From positions 1 through 37,180 of the forward strand of contig JAIPJC010000019.1 of NCBI GenBank assembly GCA_021734345.1: 37,180 nt of DNA, read 5' to 3'. The notes under the pieces were generated by a model. That model did no database searches, had not been told where the DNA came from, and was given only the letters and a program-made list of their open reading frames with translations. Each line of letters starts with the position of its first letter. Position 1 is the stretch's first letter. This document shows positions 1,804-37,180 of this stretch, piece by piece. The translations under genes were made by a program, and so were the position numbers. Source of the stretch: Kiritimatiellales bacterium (GTDB taxonomy: Bacteria > Verrucomicrobiota > Kiritimatiellia > Kiritimatiellales > Pontiellaceae).

Positions 1804-2988
1804 TTATCCAAACAGAAGTTTTTCGGGTGGTGTTGAGAGGAATTCCTCGAGCGGAATCCCGTTGCCGCCGACGATCATGGCCCGCGACTTTTTGTATTCC
1901 GTTTTGAAGGCTTGGAGGCCGGATATCTTCCCCTGTCGCCCACTCTTGATTTCGAGGGCAACTACATCGTTTCCGGAATGCAGCACGAAGTCGACTTCGG
2001 CCGTTCCCTTGCGCCAGTAGGTCATGCTGACCGGACGGTCGGCCAAGGCATTAAGCAGATACGCCCCAACGGCATTTTCAACTACCCGCCCCCACCAGAC
2101 GGGATCGGAGAGGGTCTGCCCGAAGTCCTTGAGGGACAGCCCATTGATCAGCGCGTTGTTCCATAGGATCAGCTTCGGGCTGCTGCCGCGCTTGCGGATC
2201 TGACCCAAGGAAAAAAGTTCGAGCCCGCTGACGAGATAGGCCTGCCCCAGCACACGCAGGTAATGCGCCAGCGTGGTCGTGTTGCCCGCTTCCTGCAATT
2301 GGCCGAGCATCTTGTTGTAGGAAAAAATTTGGGAGGGAAACGTCGCCGCCAACCCGAACAGGTTGTGCATCAAGGCGGGCTTGGTTATGGGATTCAGCTG
2401 CAGCACGTCCTTGGAAATCACCGTTTCCACCAGGGCGTTGCTTATATACTGCTTCCACTGGAAGTTATCGCTCTTGAAAACATTGCCGCCAGGATAGCCC
2501 CCATAGTAGAGCCAATCGTTGAGCGACCATCCAAAGGCGGCCGCGCATTCGGGATAGTTCCAATGCGTGAAGCGGTTCAGGAAAAACCGCCCGGCCAGGC
2601 TTTCCGTCAAACCCTGCTGGATCAGCAACGCCGAAGAACCGAGGATGAGCAGGCGGATATCCGCCGTGCGCTGATCCCACAGCTTCTTGACCACCTCGCT
2701 CCAGTTGCGCACTTTTTGAATTTCATCAAGGATCAACAGAACGGGCTCCCCAGACCCATTTGCTTTTTGCTCCGCCAGCCGCCACTGGGTTTCAATCCAT
2801 TCAACCTCTACGGGTAAAGAGGAATCGGCGGATGAATAAATGGACTCATGCGGAAACCGCTCCATGATCTGCTTGGCGGCGGTGGTCTTGCCAACTTGCC
2901 TCGGCCCGGTAATCACTTGGAAAACCGGAATATCCCGCATCAATCCAGCGAGGATCGAATCAACCTGCTCTCTTTTGAATACATTCAT
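1804..2988 (-). CDS. AAA-family ATPase with DUF4143/nuclease-like C-terminus
   Basis: 394 residues. A Walker A motif GPRQVGKT lies at residues 28-35 and a Walker B LLILDEIQK with D88-E89. LLILGSSALLIQQG-type sensor sequence and ESLAGRFFLNRFTHWNYPE follow, all typical of the AAA_14/DUF4143 family. Near the C-terminus TAEVDFVL and VVALEIKSGR form a D-x(n)-E-x-K pattern like a PD-(D/E)xK nuclease fold. Members are abundant, often mobile or accessory, and their role is unknown; nuclease action or nucleic-acid sensing is only a guess. The gene is first in the row ATPase-xseA-xseB, its stop touching the xseA start. Its upstream region carries an ACTCAAT/ATTGAGT palindrome that could be an operator. 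Family confident, function unknown. Confidence 0.88.
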   Translation of the reverse strand: MNVFKREQVDSILAGLMRDIPVFQVITGPRQVGKTTAAKQIMERFPHESIYSSADSSLPVEVEWIETQWRLAEQKANGSGEPVLLILDEIQKVRNWSEVVKKLWDQRTADIRLLILGSSALLIQQGLTESLAGRFFLNRFTHWNYPECAAAFGWSLNDWLYYGGYPGGNVFKSDNFQWKQYISNALVETVISKDVLQLNPITKPALMHNLFGLAATFPSQIFSYNKMLGQLQEAGNTTTLAHYLRVLGQAYLVSGLELFSLGQIRKRGSSPKLILWNNALINGLSLKDFGQTLSDPVWWGRVVENAVGAYLLNALADRPVSMTYWRKGTAEVDFVLHSGNDVVALEIKSGRQGKISGLQAFKTEYKKSRAMIVGGNGIPLEEFLSTPPEKLLFG

Positions 2989-3028
2989 CGGAAAGGGTTT
3001 ACATCAAATAAACCGTTCAAGTCAAATT

Positions 3029-3070
3029 ATTACTCAATGATTGAGTAATTTTACGCAGTCATTGAGTATT
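3029..3070. promoter_or_regulatory. palindromic candidate operator upstream of the DUF4143 ATPase gene
   Basis: Positions 3029-3049 form a 21-base palindrome with 10-base arms (ATTACTCAAT / ATTGAGTAAT) around one central base. A further half-site, TCATTGAGTA, lies at 3059-3068. The block sits 41-80 bases upstream of the ATPase start (2988) in an AT-rich gap, where a repressor or autoregulator would bind. No U-tract follows, so a terminator is less likely. Binding partner unknown. Confidence 0.4.
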
Positions 3071-3142
3071 AGCAGGAGGTGCCCCATATAAATCACGATT
3101 CACTCGTCACGTTTCACTCCCCTAAAGCCAAAAGCCTACAGT

Positions 3143-3922
3143 CTAAAGTCTCACCCTAATCCGCTCAATGCTCCGCGCTTTGCCCGTTCCCATATCCACA
3201 TCGACGATGGCGCCTTCGAGGGTCGGATCGTCTTTGGCGACGTCGAACTTGTGAGGAACGCCGGTGAGGAATTTGGCGATGACGGGTTCGACTTCGCGGC
3301 CGAGGACGGAATCCTTCGGGCCGGTCATGCCGAGGTCGGTGATGTAGGCCGTGCCTTTGGGAAAGACGGTTTCGTCGGAGGTTTGGCAGTGGGTGTGCGT
3401 GCCGAACACGGCGGACACGCGGCCGTCGAGGTAGCGCCCCATCGCCATGCGTTCGGACGAGGCTTCGCCGTGCATATCCACAAACACCACCTTCGGCGGG
3501 TTCATCGCCGGGGCCAGTAGCTTGTCGGCCGCTTGGAACGGGCAGTCGTAGTTGGGTTGCATAAAGACGCGGCCGATCAGCTGGATCACCATGATTTCGC
3601 CTTCGGGCGTATCGACCCGCACCCAGCCCTTGCCCGGCGCGCCTTTTGAAAAGTTGGCCGGACGAATGACGCGCGATTCGAGATCGATCCCCTCCACCAT
3701 TTCCTTTGCGTCCCAGGCGTGGTCGCCGAGGGTTACGACATCCGCGCCCGCGTTGAGCAGCGACTGCGCAATCTCCAGCGACGGCCCGCGACCTGCCGCC
3801 GCGTTCTCGCCGTTTGCGATCACGAAATCGATCCGGTCTTCGGCCTTCAGCCTGTTCACCACCTGTAGGAACGCCGCGCGCCCCGGCTTCCCGACAATAT
3901 CACCTACCAATAAAACTCTCAT
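3143..3922 (-). CDS. ymdB: YmdB-family metallophosphoesterase (TIGR00282; 2',3'-cyclic nucleotide phosphodiesterase)
   Basis: 259 residues, the normal length for this family. Metal-binding positions fit YmdB: D8 in LLVGDIVGKPGR, N37 and E39 in ANGENAA, H68, H150 in VDMHGEASSE, and H175/H177 in FGTHTHCQT. One ligand differs: the usual Gly-Asn-His is Gly-Asp-His here (D67), as I recall from some PVC bacteria. YmdB-type enzymes are cytosolic di-iron phosphodiesterases acting on 2',3'-cyclic nucleotides and, in Bacillus, affecting RNA turnover and biofilm formation. ymdB often neighbours xseA or rny; here only the DUF4143 gene separates it from xseA. The TAG stop lies in a short GCCTA/CTTTAG intergenic repeat. 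Family secure, substrate inferred. Confidence 0.9.
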   Translation of the reverse strand: MRVLLVGDIVGKPGRAAFLQVVNRLKAEDRIDFVIANGENAAAGRGPSLEIAQSLLNAGADVVTLGDHAWDAKEMVEGIDLESRVIRPANFSKGAPGKGWVRVDTPEGEIMVIQLIGRVFMQPNYDCPFQAADKLLAPAMNPPKVVFVDMHGEASSERMAMGRYLDGRVSAVFGTHTHCQTSDETVFPKGTAYITDLGMTGPKDSVLGREVEPVIAKFLTGVPHKFDVAKDDPTLEGAIVDVDMGTGKARSIERIRVRL

Positions 3923-3932
3923 GTTGCCTCTT

Positions 3933-3947
3933 TTCCAATAATTGGAA
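3933..3947. repeat. TTCCA-N5-TGGAA palindrome, intergenic copy 1
   Basis: TTCCA-ATAAT-TGGAA lies 11 bases upstream of the ymdB ATG (3922). The arms can extend inward to 7 bases around one central base. Perfect copies of the same 5-5-5 motif occur at 4195-4209, 4332-4346, 11761-11775, 18226-18240 and 19353-19367. Confidence 0.6.
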
Positions 3948-3990
3948 GGGAGTGTACCGAAAAGACCGGCGGTGTCGAGGCATCACCGCG

Positions 3991-6021
3991 TTACTCCCTT
4001 GTGCGCGAATCGAGCAGCTGGGCCTTTTCGACGAGGCGGATGAATTCGGCGCGATAGCCTTCCGCATCCGTGCCCCTGGACTCCCTAGCCTGATCAAGCA
4101 CTGCATTGTAGCCGGCATCACCCTTGTATTCCGAGTTGCGCAGCAGCAGGCCGAATTCGGCGACCGCACCGGCAAACTTGAGGTTATCGGACGTTTCCAA
4201 TGGTTGGAAGTCGGCCGCCTTGATGAATTGGGTGATCAGCTTGCTTTCGTCGCCATCCGGTTGCTTGTAGCGCAGCTTGACGGTCATGAGCTCGTCGCTC
4301 TTGCGCAACTCGGTCGTCTGGTATTTCAGGTTTCCAGCCTCTGGAACTTCTTCGTCCGACCCGACAGGGATGAGTTCGTAGAGCGCGGTGACGGTATGCC
4401 CCGCGCCGAGCTCGCCTGCATCCTTCTTGTCGTCGTCGAAATCCTCCTTGGCGAGCAGACGGTTTTCGTAGCCGATGAGGCGGTAGGCCTTGACCTGCGC
4501 GGGGTTGAACTCGATCTGGATCTTGACGTCCTTGGCGATGGTGACGAGCGTGCCGCCCATTTCGGTGACGAGCACTTTCTTGGCTTCGAGGATGTCGTCG
4601 ATGTAGGCATAGTTGCCGTTCCCCTTGTCGGCCAGCTGCTCCATCTTGGAATCCTTGTAATTGCCGGTTCCAAACCCGAGCACGGTGAGGAAGATGCCCG
4701 TTTCTCGCTTTTCTTCGATTAGGCGGACGAGCGCGCCGTCGGAGCTGGTGCCGACGTTGAAGTCGCCGTCGGTCGCGAGGATGACGCGGTTGTTGCCATC
4801 CTTGATGAAGCCTTGCTGCGCGGCCTTGTAGGCGAGTTCGATGCCCGCGCCGCCGGCAGTGGAGCCACCGGCGCTCAGCCACTCAATCGCTTCGAGGATG
4901 CAAGACTTGTCGGACGTGGGTTCGAGCACCAGCCCGGCGGCACCGGCATAGACCACGATCGACACGCGGTCCTGCGGGCGGAGCTGTTCGACGAGCAAAC
5001 GCATGGCGGACTTGAGCAGCGGAAGCTTGTCGGGCTGGTTCATCGAACCGGATACATCCAGTAGGAAGACCAGGTTGTTCGGCGGCAGGTTTTTCGTTTC
5101 GACTTCCAACCCCTGGAGGCCGACAAGCGCCAATTGGTGCTCCGTATTCCACGGACACGCCGCCAGTTCCATTGAAACCGCGAACGGATCGGCGTTTTTG
5201 GGCTGCGGATAGTCGTACTTAAAATAGTTGACCATCTCCTCGATGCGCACCGCGTCCGGCGGCGGAAGCTGGTTGTCGTTCAGGAAGCGCCGTACATTCG
5301 CATACGCTGCCCGGTCGACATCGATCGAAAACGTAGAGAGCGGGTTATCCAGTGCCAGCTTGAAGGCGTTGTCGACGATCCGGCTGTATTGCTCGGTGTT
5401 GAATTCAGCGGGTGCCTTACTCTTGCTTCCGAAGAATATCACTTCGGGCATACTGAACGAAAGCGAAGTGCTGCCCAAAACAGTTTCTCCTGCAACATTC
5501 GGCATTGAGACGACGGCGGAATCCGCCGTTTTAGCTACCACCTGTCTGCGCAACCTTGGTTTTGATTTTTCGACGGATACTGGAACGTTCAGCTTTTTCA
5601 GCTTCATTTTTGGTCGGTCGACTTCTGGCGCCTCGAAGGACACGGCAATTCCCTTTGCCCGGTCCGCTTTTCCGCTCAACCGCGTTATTACGAGACCGAG
5701 GCTAATGAAGAGGAATACGCCGCACGCCGCAACGGTGACCAGCGCCGCTCGGAGGCGCGGGTTGTACCAATGGTCCGAAATGGTCTTGCGGCGCGCGGAC
5801 GGGCGGTGCGGAATGAAGCGCAACGCGCTGAGTTTCTCCGGCACGGGGGCGGTTGCAAGGGATTCGCCGAGCAGCGCGAGCGTGGCGCGCCGAGCTTCAA
5901 GTTCGGCGCGGCAGGCGTGGCAGCTTGCGAGGTGCGCTTCCAGGGTCTGGACGTCGCGGTCGGCGAGCTCGCCGTGGATGTAGGCCGTAAGTTTCTTTTC
6001 GATGGATGTGCAGTTTTTCAT
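3991..6021 (-). CDS. zinc anti-sigma domain fused to YfbK-like von Willebrand factor A membrane protein
   Basis: 676 residues. Residues 5-45 are a zinc-binding anti-sigma (zf-HC2) domain with H30-x3-C34-x2-C37. A single membrane segment spans about 91-113. The outer part begins with the YfbK-type vWA N-terminal region (LSTFSIDVDRAAYANVRRFL, near 229), then a vWA domain with an intact MIDAS motif DVSGS at 322-326 and TDGD near 418, then a DUF3520-type C-terminus ending near 670. The start codon overlaps the stop of the ECF sigma gene (ATGA). Inference: this is a membrane-anchored anti-sigma factor for that sigma, with the vWA part as an external sensor or metal-dependent adhesion module. Soluble or lipoprotein YfbK relatives lack the anti-sigma part. 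Confidence 0.9.
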   Translation of the reverse strand: MKNCTSIEKKLTAYIHGELADRDVQTLEAHLASCHACRAELEARRATLALLGESLATAPVPEKLSALRFIPHRPSARRKTISDHWYNPRLRAALVTVAACGVFLFISLGLVITRLSGKADRAKGIAVSFEAPEVDRPKMKLKKLNVPVSVEKSKPRLRRQVVAKTADSAVVSMPNVAGETVLGSTSLSFSMPEVIFFGSKSKAPAEFNTEQYSRIVDNAFKLALDNPLSTFSIDVDRAAYANVRRFLNDNQLPPPDAVRIEEMVNYFKYDYPQPKNADPFAVSMELAACPWNTEHQLALVGLQGLEVETKNLPPNNLVFLLDVSGSMNQPDKLPLLKSAMRLLVEQLRPQDRVSIVVYAGAAGLVLEPTSDKSCILEAIEWLSAGGSTAGGAGIELAYKAAQQGFIKDGNNRVILATDGDFNVGTSSDGALVRLIEEKRETGIFLTVLGFGTGNYKDSKMEQLADKGNGNYAYIDDILEAKKVLVTEMGGTLVTIAKDVKIQIEFNPAQVKAYRLIGYENRLLAKEDFDDDKKDAGELGAGHTVTALYELIPVGSDEEVPEAGNLKYQTTELRKSDELMTVKLRYKQPDGDESKLITQFIKAADFQPLETSDNLKFAGAVAEFGLLLRNSEYKGDAGYNAVLDQARESRGTDAEGYRAEFIRLVEKAQLLDSRTRE

Positions 6022-35486: not shown

Positions 35487-36119
35487 ATGATTGAGCAAAA
35501 ACAAGCCGTGGCTGACTGCATGAACCGCCTCTATGCGCAGGGGCTCACAACCACTTCCGGCGGCAATATTTCCCTGCGCGTCTCCGACGACCTCATCCTG
35601 CTAACGCCCTCCGCCACCGACAAGGGCAACATGCGCGCCGATCAAATCGCCGAGATCGGCATGGACGGCACCAACCACACGCCGCATCTCAAGCCCAGCG
35701 GCGAAACCTCCATGCATCTGGAAATCTACAAGCGCCGCCCCGACGTACGCGCCATCGTACACGCCCACCCGCCCTTCGCCAGCGTCTTTACCGTGGTGGA
35801 CAAGAAACTCAACGTCCGCCTCATCGCGGAGTCGTATGCCATCATCGGCGAGCCCGCCGTCGCGCCGTATTCGTTGACCGGAACGCGGGAGCTGGCCGAC
35901 AGCGTGGCCGATAGCCTTGCACGCCCCACGGTCTGCGTACTCATGAAAAACCACGGTGTGCTCACCGTCGGCACGGATCTGCTTCAGGCCTTCGACCGCA
36001 TCGAGGTGCTGGAAAACGCGGCCAAGATCAATCTCTTCGCCGCACAGCTGGGCGGGATGAACGAACTGGATGCGGAACAATGCGCCGCGCTTGACGCCTT
36101 GGTGGGCCGCGATGGCTGA
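35487..36119 (+). CDS. class II aldolase, fuculose-1-phosphate type; possible 5-(methylthio)ribulose-1-phosphate aldolase
   Basis: 210 residues. Residue positions coincide with E. coli FucA: catalytic E73 in SGETSMH, zinc ligands H92 and H94 in VHAHPPFAS, and H156 in MKNHGVLT. TTSGGNISLRV near 22 and TPSATDKGNM near 40 bind the phosphate. Such enzymes split a ketose 1-phosphate into DHAP and an aldehyde. Next to mtnA, the best candidate substrate is 5-(methylthio)ribulose 1-phosphate, as in the DHAP shunt; MtnB (dehydratase) belongs to the same superfamily and is the main alternative. Its stop overlaps the start of the B12/radical SAM gene by eight bases. Confidence 0.82.
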   Translation: MIEQKQAVADCMNRLYAQGLTTTSGGNISLRVSDDLILLTPSATDKGNMRADQIAEIGMDGTNHTPHLKPSGETSMHLEIYKRRPDVRAIVHAHPPFASVFTVVDKKLNVRLIAESYAIIGEPAVAPYSLTGTRELADSVADSLARPTVCVLMKNHGVLTVGTDLLQAFDRIEVLENAAKINLFAAQLGGMNELDAEQCAALDALVGRDG

Positions 36120-37180
36120 GATCATCCTCGCCGCGTTCAACGCGCGCTATGCGCACAGCTCCTTCGGCGCGCGCTACCTGCTCGCCAACCTCGGCAAACT
36201 GCAAGAGCAAGCCGAGCTGATGGAGTTCGATTTGCAGGAACAGCCGCGTGTCGCCGCCGAAAAAATCCTCGCCCGCCATCCGCGCATCGTCGGCATCGGC
36301 AGCTACATCTGGAACATTGATCTCGCCACCAAAGTCGCCGCGTTGCTCAAGCTGCTCCGCCCCGACATTCGACTCATTCTCGGCGGACCGGAAATCAGCC
36401 ACGAAACCGAAGCACAGGAAATCGCCCGATACGCCGACCACGTCATCTGCGGCGAAGGCGAGATCGAATTTCCAAAACTGTGCAGGAGCCTGCTGGGGAG
36501 CAGGCGGGACGCCTGCGATACGAACTCTACTGTACCGCAGGCGTCCCGCCTGCCCGACAGCACCGGCTTCACTCCGCATCAAGAGATCCAACAGTCCCGA
36601 CGCAAAAACCTCCCCCACTGGACGCAAGATGGCTGCACCTACTTCGTCACGTTCCGTCTCGCCGACTCCATTGCCCAATCGCGCATCAAGGAATACGAAG
36701 AACTCCGCCGCAAATGGGAGGAACACCACCAGCCGCCCTACACCGACAAGGAGCGCGAACGATTCAACGAACTGTTTTCTGACCGCGTGAACGAATGGCT
36801 TGATGAAGGTTCGGGATCGTGTTGCCTGGCAAATCCGGAGCTCTCGCAAATTGTTGCCGACACCCTCGTTCATTTTGACGGTGAACGTTATGACTTGGAC
36901 GAATGGGTCGTGATGCCGAATCACGTGCATGTGCTGATGCGGCCGCTGGCAGAAAACACGCTCGCGGATATCCTGCATTCTTGGAAGTCGTTTTCGGCCC
37001 ACGAAATCAACAAGGCCACGGGGCAAAAGGGTATCGTGTGGCAGCGGGAAAGCTACGACCACATCGTCCGTGATGCGGATGAATTGATGAGGATTCGGAA
37101 CTATATTCGGCGCAACCCAGAGAAAGCCGGCATACGGGCACACCATGCGGGGAGCAGGCGGGACGCCTGCGATACGACAG
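36112..37180 (+). CDS. B12-binding radical SAM protein (DUF4080 type), N-terminal domain read in frame into a REP-associated tyrosine transposase
   Basis: Open from the ATG at 36112 to the window end, 356 codons without a stop. Residues 1-123 are a cobalamin-binding domain of the B12/radical SAM DUF4080 type: AAFNARYAHSSFGARYLLAN, VGIGSYIWNIDLATKVAALL, RLILGGPEISHETEAQEIA and VICGEGEIEFPKL. At codon 124 onward the frame enters a REP palindrome and then a complete Y1 transposase core: LPHWTQDGCTYFVTFRLADS, the metal-binding H271-x-H273 in MPNHVHVLM, and catalytic Tyr315 in RESYDHIVR. The radical SAM domain would lie past the window. From 36481 to about 36785 there is no in-frame ATG, GTG or TTG. 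The gene overlaps the aldolase by eight bases. Confidence 0.8.
   Translation, partial: MAEIILAAFNARYAHSSFGARYLLANLGKLQEQAELMEFDLQEQPRVAAEKILARHPRIVGIGSYIWNIDLATKVAALLKLLRPDIRLILGGPEISHETEAQEIARYADHVICGEGEIEFPKLCRSLLGSRRDACDTNSTVPQASRLPDSTGFTPHQEIQQSRRKNLPHWTQDGCTYFVTFRLADSIAQSRIKEYEELRRKWEEHHQPPYTDKERERFNELFSDRVNEWLDEGSGSCCLANPELSQIVADTLVHFDGERYDLDEWVVMPNHVHVLMRPLAENTLADILHSWKSFSAHEINKATGQKGIVWQRESYDHIVRDADELMRIRNYIRRNPEKAGIRAHHAGSRRDACDTT
36495..37180 (+). mobile_element. REP/RAYT element (IS200/IS605-related Y1 transposase flanked by REP sequences)
   Basis: Left end: GGGGAGCAGGCGGGACGCCT and nine more bases (36495-36523), then the inverse partner at 36533-36557 (CGCAGGCGTCCCGCCTGCCC). Each arm holds a GCAGGCG-GGA-CGCCTGC hairpin. 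Right end: the same 29 bases repeat at 37149-37177 and continue off the window. The two ends are 654 bases apart (218 codons), so both are read in the same frame. Between them lies a single-strand transposase of the RAYT family with HUH motif and Tyr. RAYTs are thought to copy REP sequences. Right boundary not visible. Confidence 0.85.

Follow-up and report, generated by a model that had tools for sequence, protein, structure and literature searches.

Repetitive extragenic palindromes (REPs) are named as extragenic, and the REP-associated tyrosine transposases (RAYTs, or TnpA-REP) are regarded as stand-alone, domesticated genes; we know of no explanation for the benefit and persistence of RAYTs. 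The REPtrons that RAYTs form with their REPs do not appear to transpose as a unit, and REPs in frame inside RAYT genes themselves have been published (PMC6006769). REPs and REP dimers have also been described in frame inside protein genes, many of them DNA repair genes, including those of the verrucomicrobial O. terrae (Di Nocera et al. 2013; PMC3733652). The accessible passages of the first of these papers do not mention a RAYT inside a host gene, and those of the second, including its section on transposases, describe no transposase inside one. A literature search on titles and abstract openings, with most subscription journals, preprints, and supplements outside its range, showed no RAYT embedded in a host gene among the top hits listed. 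Here we analyze an entire contig of 37,180 bp (C19; "the window" denotes this whole stretch) from the draft genome (G000; 3.25 Mb, 176 contigs) of a Kiritimatiellales bacterium. The feature at its 3′ end is best explained as a REP-RAYT-REP cassette that appears to be inserted in frame in the loop that joins the B12-binding domain of a single-copy DUF4080-type enzyme to its radical SAM domain. Together with its relatives, it leads us to consider it probable that unspliced REPtrons reside in frame in loops of host proteins, are expressed via the host gene, and are often inherited with it; in several bacterial phyla, RAYT cassettes appear to exist as additional domains of proteins and not as intergenic elements.

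A REP-RAYT-REP Cassette in the Frame of a Putative B12/Radical SAM Enzyme

The last open reading frame (ORF) of the window runs on the forward strand, as do all its features given here, from an ATG at 36112 to the contig end at 37180 without a stop, and represents the N-terminal part of a fusion that continues on contig C78 (residues are counted from this ATG). The host part is a B12-binding domain at 36136–36477 (Pfam PF02310, residues 9–122, E 1e-10), whose predicted fold is mostly confident and whose Foldseek matches include the B12-radical SAM enzyme TokK. It is followed at 36491–36562 by the left REP pair (REPIN), with the hairpin GCAGGCGGGACGCCTGC... read within GSRRDACDTNSTVPQASRLPDS, which was recognized by a repeat match, by DNA folding, and as a low-confidence linker in the protein model. 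The left REP at 36495–36523 pairs with an arm at 36532–36562, and this hairpin has a DNA fold z score of −10, with none of 200 shuffled sequences equally stable; the REP-coded linker (residues 132–168) is disordered in the AlphaFold model (pLDDT <50). The RAYT itself, a TnpA-REP-like Y1 HUH transposase domain, occupies 36583–37140 and was identified by Pfam Y1_Tnp (residues 259–334, E 5e-8) and by comparison with the solved TnpA-REP structure 4er8, both in sequence (E 8e-5) and as the best Foldseek match (E 6e-6). Its HUH motif N-H-V-H (H271 and H273; 36919–36930) and its catalytic tyrosine Y331 within YIRRNP (37102–37104) are invariant in an alignment of 32 rows. In the AlphaFold model of the window ORF the B12 and RAYT domains are mostly confident (mean pLDDT 76.8, pTM 0.50). 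Judged by sequence and predicted fold, the domain is a relative of the RAYT/TnpA-REP family, although a divergent one.

The first arm of the right REP pair follows at 37149–37180, in the same frame as the left REP, and the contig breaks inside it. The 29-nt REP copies at 36495–36523 and 37149–37177 are 100% identical, 654 bases apart, and in the same frame. The sole DUF4080 match in the genome lies on C78, whose end is the same REP and overlaps the end of C19 by 30 bp. Across this inferred join the frame continues on C78 through the complete right REP pair and the radical SAM motif CxxxCxxC into DUF4080 (Pfam Radical_SAM and DUF4080), and the B12-binding, radical SAM, and DUF4080 domains are thus in one frame. 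The whole architecture is found on single contigs in relatives G006, G033, and G014. The one-base REP difference between window 37151–37180 and the end of L028 may represent strain variation in a metagenomic population.

The in-frame ATG, GTG, or TTG codons nearest the junction are a TTG at 36343, within the B12 domain, and a GTG at 36787, which lies downstream of the conserved LPHW and YFVTFRLADS motifs; no such codon occurs between them, and there is no stop up to 37180 or on C78 through DUF4080. A cassette with neither a stop nor a usual start would therefore be expressed within the host transcript and as a segment of the host protein. A sequence-only reading of the window had already described the stop-free frame through the B12 domain, REP pair, transposase with HxH and Tyr, and second REP, the spacing and frame of the REP arms, and the lack of a usual start upstream of the HUH core. 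Every detail checked by frame, Pfam, and alignment was correct; its placement of the insertion in the B12/radical SAM linker is supported by the frame on C78, and the extension past 37180 into a radical SAM domain that it had proposed to look for is present there.

It had further called the insertion intein-like. Pfam hits in the window ORF were limited to B12-binding, Y1_Tnp, and a weak Radical_SAM_N2, and those in the C78 part to Radical_SAM and DUF4080; with no splicing (Hint) domain among them, an intein proper is not supported. The description holds for the lifestyle, in that the insert is whole and in frame, has host sequence on both sides, and occurs at recurrent sites with empty alleles, but it does not extend to splicing.

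Embedded RAYTs Recur in the Order, the Phylum, and Beyond

Other RAYT copies in this genome, which the sequence-only reading had suggested seeking, include two further in-frame relatives, one inside PriA (1033 aa ORF) and one inside a tRNA nucleotidyltransferase of the CCA-adding/poly(A) polymerase family (CCA-type; 705 aa ORF). Because chance frames of up to ~380 aa occur, as in the antisense frame of the window, only copies in frames of at least 400 aa were counted as embedded, and with this threshold a chance open frame was set aside as an explanation. Within the order, 31 of 43 genomes contain a RAYT match at E 1e-20 or better. Among the 65 matches, 51 lie in stop-free frames of 446–1198 aa and 12 in frames of 207–289 aa, the rest being the window copy (373 aa, truncated at the contig end) and one copy in G018 with an internal TAG. 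The G018 copy (L071/L159, at the end of G018:C259) has the sole internal stop among the 65; it lies at a contig end and may be decaying. What had been treated as a single oddity is instead a way of life widespread in this RAYT group.

In a drawn sample of the phylum, at least 114 of 387 genomes have a match at E 1e-15 or better, with many frames of 1000–2175 aa among the matches listed. Named genomes gave frames of at least 400 aa in 45 of the best 80 loci, a set that is biased because every row of the query alignment was an embedded copy; the 45 include records of Verrucomicrobia, Planctomycetota, Bacteroidota, Chloroflexales, Ignavibacteria, Gammaproteobacteria, Gallionellaceae, and Methylomirabilis. 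As a control, Y1_Tnp was searched in those 43 genomes: of the rows listed, all 32 whose frames reach at least 500 aa belong to this RAYT group, and outside it there are four rows at 462–497 aa and none longer among the matches listed, a result that bears on in-frame copies and says nothing about out-of-frame insertions in genes. One of these four rows, from the window genome, is a kinase (L032; G000:C50, near C50:19209–19562), which we take to be ThiD-like and whose C terminus bears a RAYT from another subgroup in a 470 aa frame; fusion is therefore not confined to one RAYT group.

Since the window contig ends in a repeat and many of the relatives are draft assemblies, contigs misjoined or chimeric at repeats could produce such an architecture artificially. 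It occurs, however, inside long contigs, for instance in G035, an assembly of 5 contigs with two embedded copies, and also in named records that carry no metagenome-assembly label (e.g., Pontiellaceae bacterium B12227 and Flavobacterium branchiophilum NBRC 15030). For these reasons assembly artefact is rejected as a general explanation, and we regard it as highly improbable.

Host Proteins and Insertion Sites

With the RAYT masked, 111 long ORFs formed 31 clusters, yielding 27 named hosts (by Pfam, or by BLAST to a Pfam-named ORF) and two unnamed ORFs (L150 and L229). The named hosts are PriA, exonuclease VII (XseA), the CCA-type enzyme, DUF4080, HypF, TatD, Fic, mevalonate-diphosphate decarboxylase, Methyltransf_9 (presumably CmoB-like), LeuRS, ValRS, AlaRS, HsdR, Eco57I-like and MmeI-like methylases, carbamoyl-phosphate synthase, adenosine deaminase, Nudix, MetH, IspG, an ADH/MocA protein, a FabA-like protein, a Lyase_1 protein, an MgsA-containing protein, Sua5, an SNF2 helicase, and a helicase that we take to be DinG-like. 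PriA, XseA, and the tRNA nucleotidyltransferase are among the hosts within the order, and the RAYT-bearing genes for these three are found in both of its families; LeuRS, ValRS, AlaRS, MetH, IspG, and the Eco57I-like methylases are hosts elsewhere. Each of the 36 genomes with a PriA match has one copy of the gene, in one case split over two contigs, and DUF4080 gives a single match in all 33 genomes with a match.

The insertion sites inspected are linkers or loops. The alignment of the RAYT-bearing LeuRS with the solved structure 1h3n breaks at residue 374 of the latter and resumes at 379, with ~214 residues in between, and that of PriA with 4nl4 breaks at 121 and resumes at 175, which places the PriA insert in the linker after the 3′-binding domain. 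In G033, adjoining DUF4080 and Fic/DOC genes (L112:932–2695 and 2752–5031) each contain an in-frame RAYT that belongs to the subgroup of the window copy and is 69–75% identical to it. The Eco57I-type methylases L137, L138, L163, L165, L166, L183, L209, L218, L220, L224, and L225, from Chloroflexales, Bacteroidota, Ignavibacteria, Planctomycetota, and Verrucomicrobia records, have the RAYT at a similar place, starting at residue 491–607; either a single old insertion spread by gene transfer or repeated entry may account for this.

Flanking Repeats and Empty or REPIN-only Alleles

The cassette of PriA consists of a RAYT between two REPINs with GTAG-tagged arms, which repeat each other directly over 120 nt with 80% identity; the XseA cassette is similar, and the CCA cassette has one GTGG-tagged arm on each side. 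After removal of 4 duplicates and 7 copies with short flanks from the 111 ORFs of at least 400 aa, 84 of the 100 testable embedded copies had a direct or inverted flanking repeat above threshold, compared with none when the right flank was shuffled and 3 when it was swapped from another ORF (n = 100 for each control). An earlier shuffled control had covered direct repeats only; the later test covered direct and inverted repeats and added the swapped flanks. The spacing of the direct repeats (n = 56) is a multiple of three in 48 copies, leaves a remainder of 1 in 3, and a remainder of 2 in 5. Direct repeats being mostly in the same frame, loss of the RAYT through recombination between them, or its regain at a REPIN, would therefore preserve the host frame.

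Alleles with and without the RAYT are found for the same genes. At site 1 of DUF4080, the B12/radical SAM linker, a RAYT is present in G000, G006, G033, and G014, and a REP pair without RAYT is present by translation in G001, G004, and G035; no fully clean site 1 was singled out among the relatives, in which this linker is highly variable. At site 2, a loop within the DUF4080 domain, a RAYT is present in G004, G035, G032, and G008 and a REP pair in G001, and the site is empty in G006, G020, G034, and C78, among others. G029 has a RAYT in the DUF4080-domain part by BLAST, with the exact junction not displayed by the pattern. The PriA linker is clean in G008, G010, G021, G023, and G028, holds only REP-coded residues in G005, G004, and G001 (three REP types by translation), and in other genomes holds RAYTs from two separate clades; presence of the RAYT is patchy across PriA genes. 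These REPIN-only alleles suggest that deletion between the REP copies leaves a REPIN and a working host gene, and we infer that the REPIN-only and REP-RAYT-REP alleles interconvert.

With up to 3 mismatches allowed, the REP of the window family occurs at 26 genomic sites, against none in the control, several of these sites being within long open frames that are not verified as genes. One open frame of at least 929 aa (G000:C22:28746–30571; L301, L310, and L316), likewise of unverified gene status, contains three copies. Around the DUF4080 gene, the upstream gene of the window, which we take to be an aldolase, lies directly before DUF4080 in three of the eight relative loci searched (G032, G033, and G035), and the Fic gene located 3′ of DUF4080 on C78 lies directly after it in one of the eight (G033; Pfam on the G033 copy). 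The remaining loci of the eight gave no match for these neighbor genes.

Conservation, Selection, and Co-divergence

Catalytic residues were counted in an alignment, and a tree was built, after leaving out duplicates and segments of fewer than 130 residues. The full set of HxH and Tyr is retained in 107 of 108 embedded copies, both histidines being found in all 108 and the tyrosine in 107, and in 46 of 48 others. For the six genes of PriA clade 1, RAYT dN/dS was 0.05–0.10 (the 9 of 15 pairs with finite dS) against 0.06–0.11 for the helicase, values that are rough because dS is near saturation. Nearly all RAYT pairs of XseA and DUF4080 are saturated, with one finite dN/dS each, 0.05 and 0.06. 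On these coding-sequence comparisons, purifying selection on the RAYT in PriA is apparently as strong as that on its helicase. Mere toleration of the insert, as the sequence-only reading had proposed, does not agree with the conserved triad or with the selection in PriA.

Another possibility is that these are recent, decaying insertions, in frame by chance and visible only because the counts use open frames. Their location in linkers and loops, their patchy presence, and the fact that out-of-frame insertions fall outside the search would be compatible with such neutral passengers. Nevertheless, we consider them very unlikely as the explanation, given the nearly invariant catalytic triad, the low dN/dS in PriA at synonymous sites near saturation, and an internal stop in just one of the 65 copies of the order.

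Co-divergence of host and RAYT was tested by distance correlation for five hosts. It was strongest in PriA clade 1 (r 0.87; 7 of 2000 permutations as high), followed by PriA clade 2 (0.63; 16/2000), CCA (0.52; 11/2000), XseA (0.42; 41/2000), Eco57I (0.28; 73/2000), and all PriA (0.24; 45/2000). In the tree of 156 RAYTs, the distinction between embedded and single copies required 20 changes, and 29 labels (27 hosts, unnamed, and single) required 43 changes, for which the minimum is 28 and the shuffled mean 103; the CCA and XseA labels each required 1 change, and PriA 2. We read this as a modest number of gene entries, after which the RAYTs of PriA, CCA, and XseA were probably inherited vertically for a long time; the DUF4080 group is apparently still mobile.

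The same evidence can be viewed differently: in some hosts the RAYT may have been captured as a working part of the enzyme and be kept for that function and not for its own spread, as would hold if PriA or exonuclease VII had acquired a nuclease specific for REPs or hairpins. The RAYTs of PriA, XseA, and CCA-type genes across both families of the order, the clustering of host labels on the RAYT tree, and the combination in PriA of co-divergence with a RAYT dN/dS as low as the host's all fit such capture. PriA, XseA, TatD, HsdR, and Eco57I-like enzymes also have established roles on DNA. Yet many hosts have no DNA role (MetH, IspG, HypF, FabA-like, LeuRS, and carbamoyl-phosphate synthase), near relatives have empty alleles and the RAYT domain is therefore dispensable, and the same PriA linker is used by two different RAYT clades. 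We consider capture somewhat unlikely, and favor residence of REPtrons in host loops.

Potential Starts in Embedded Copies

An embedded RAYT might also be a nested gene, mainly translated by itself from an internal, perhaps nonstandard start, with the open frame merely sparing the host. At least one ATG, GTG, or TTG lies within 60 codons upstream of the RAYT in 92 of 104 embedded copies (3 of 107 were left out of this count because fewer than 61 residues precede the core), and six CCA-type members have possible starts in common at −34 and −13. In the window, at 36483–36495, an AGGAG directly 5′ of CTG codons at 36490 and 36493 in the RAYT frame is a weak candidate for a nonstandard internal start, and in the phage analogue ShiLan the nuclease has its own start, though out of frame (PMC11855218, in its accessible part). 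Against self-translation, the window copy and 12 of the 104 others have no usual start in this range, the PriA copies have no start position common to all, some pairs sharing one, and an ATG upstream is rarer in embedded copies (49/104) than in single copies (36/47). A nested gene is, in our estimation, unlikely. The claim that the transposase is translatable only as a fusion is well supported by the reading frame of the window copy, for which we keep it, but we do not extend it to embedded copies in general.

A Possible Frame-Preserving Cycle

If REPtrons do reside in host loops, a cassette would enter a loop and survive only where it is in frame. The product would be a single long chain, with a folded HUH nuclease, predicted to be catalytically intact, held between the host halves by two disordered linkers encoded by the REPs. 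The RAYT would be synthesized from the host promoter and start as one domain of this chain and could act on its REPs from there; host enzyme and RAYT would both be functional in the fusion. Deletion between same-frame REP copies would yield a REPIN plus a working host gene, and the reverse step, gain of a RAYT at a REPIN, may also occur. Lodging in an indispensable gene would supply the RAYT with a promoter and a start codon and would guard it against loss that breaks the frame. In its most far-reaching form, the proposal is of a mobile element at the protein level that enters surface loops of indispensable proteins in frame, exists only as a permanent, unspliced domain, lands at in-frame REPINs, and is lost again by a deletion that keeps the frame and leaves a REPIN behind, an intein-like cycle without splicing in several phyla. 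We offer this form tentatively, its chances being somewhat short of even.

Several observations weigh against frame-sharing residence with host inheritance as a general account. The possible upstream starts in most embedded copies are one. The counts rest on open frames and favor in-frame copies, with out-of-frame and antisense insertions in genes outside the search. dN/dS was compared in 19 genes of four hosts only, its roughness near saturation applies throughout, and in the four CCA-type genes the RAYT is less constrained than the host (0.12–0.18 against 0.06–0.09). In DUF4080, co-divergence was not significant (r 0.27; 525 of 2000 permutations as high) and there are two RAYT insertion sites; the group therefore appears to move. 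TatD, Fic, and the Lyase_1 protein carry the RAYT C-terminally and not internally, and most genomes contain a distant paralogue of the CCA-type enzyme. The window RAYT scores 74.9 bits (E 6e-21) against NCBIfam REP_Tyr_transpos, below a cut-off of 80 that is a curation threshold and no biological feature, and the window gene itself is divided between two draft contigs with 1 mismatch in their overlap.

A RAYT kept as a lasting domain of PriA, tRNA synthetases, MetH, and tRNA nucleotidyltransferases suggests one route to persistence, namely expression through, and inheritance together with, genes that the cell cannot lose. RAYT-bearing, REPIN-only, and empty alleles of one gene are natural experiments on REP mobility, and the hosts form a large natural catalogue of sites where enzymes accept a whole extra domain. 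Host genes that carry a RAYT may easily be misannotated as transposases or broken genes.

Comparison with Known Systems

The closest described systems are the RAYT/TnpA-REP REPtrons, related to the IS200/IS605 HUH tyrosine transposases, which the embedded cassettes resemble in the HxH motif and Tyr, in REP hairpins on both sides, in the fold match to 4er8, and in the GTAG- or GTGG-tagged REPs of the PriA, XseA, and CCA copies inspected. In described REPtrons the RAYT is a separate gene, whereas here the whole cassette lies inside the host reading frame. Rickettsia palindromic elements (RPEs) are short and are not known to carry a transposase. They are similar in being palindromic inserts in frame in functional genes (cited in PMC3733652), and the intragenic in-frame REPs described in the accessible part of the same paper contribute 20–82 codons of repeat only, in contrast to the transposase-bearing cassette reported here. 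The ShiLan domain of a phage methylase is likewise a stop-free insertion read with its host and without a detectable splicing domain, but its HNH nuclease begins at a separate GTG in a different frame, as described in the accessible part of that report (PMC11855218), whereas the transposase here is in the host frame. Inteins and homing endonucleases share in-frame residence in conserved single-copy genes, recurrent sites, empty alleles, and an internal nuclease domain; they differ in that here there is no splicing domain, the insert would stay in the mature protein, and the nuclease is a Y1 HUH domain in loops and linkers. REP-only in-frame insertions are known, and what appears to be new is a RAYT living inside a host gene, which we file as a form of RAYT/REPtron with an intein-like life that is no intein.

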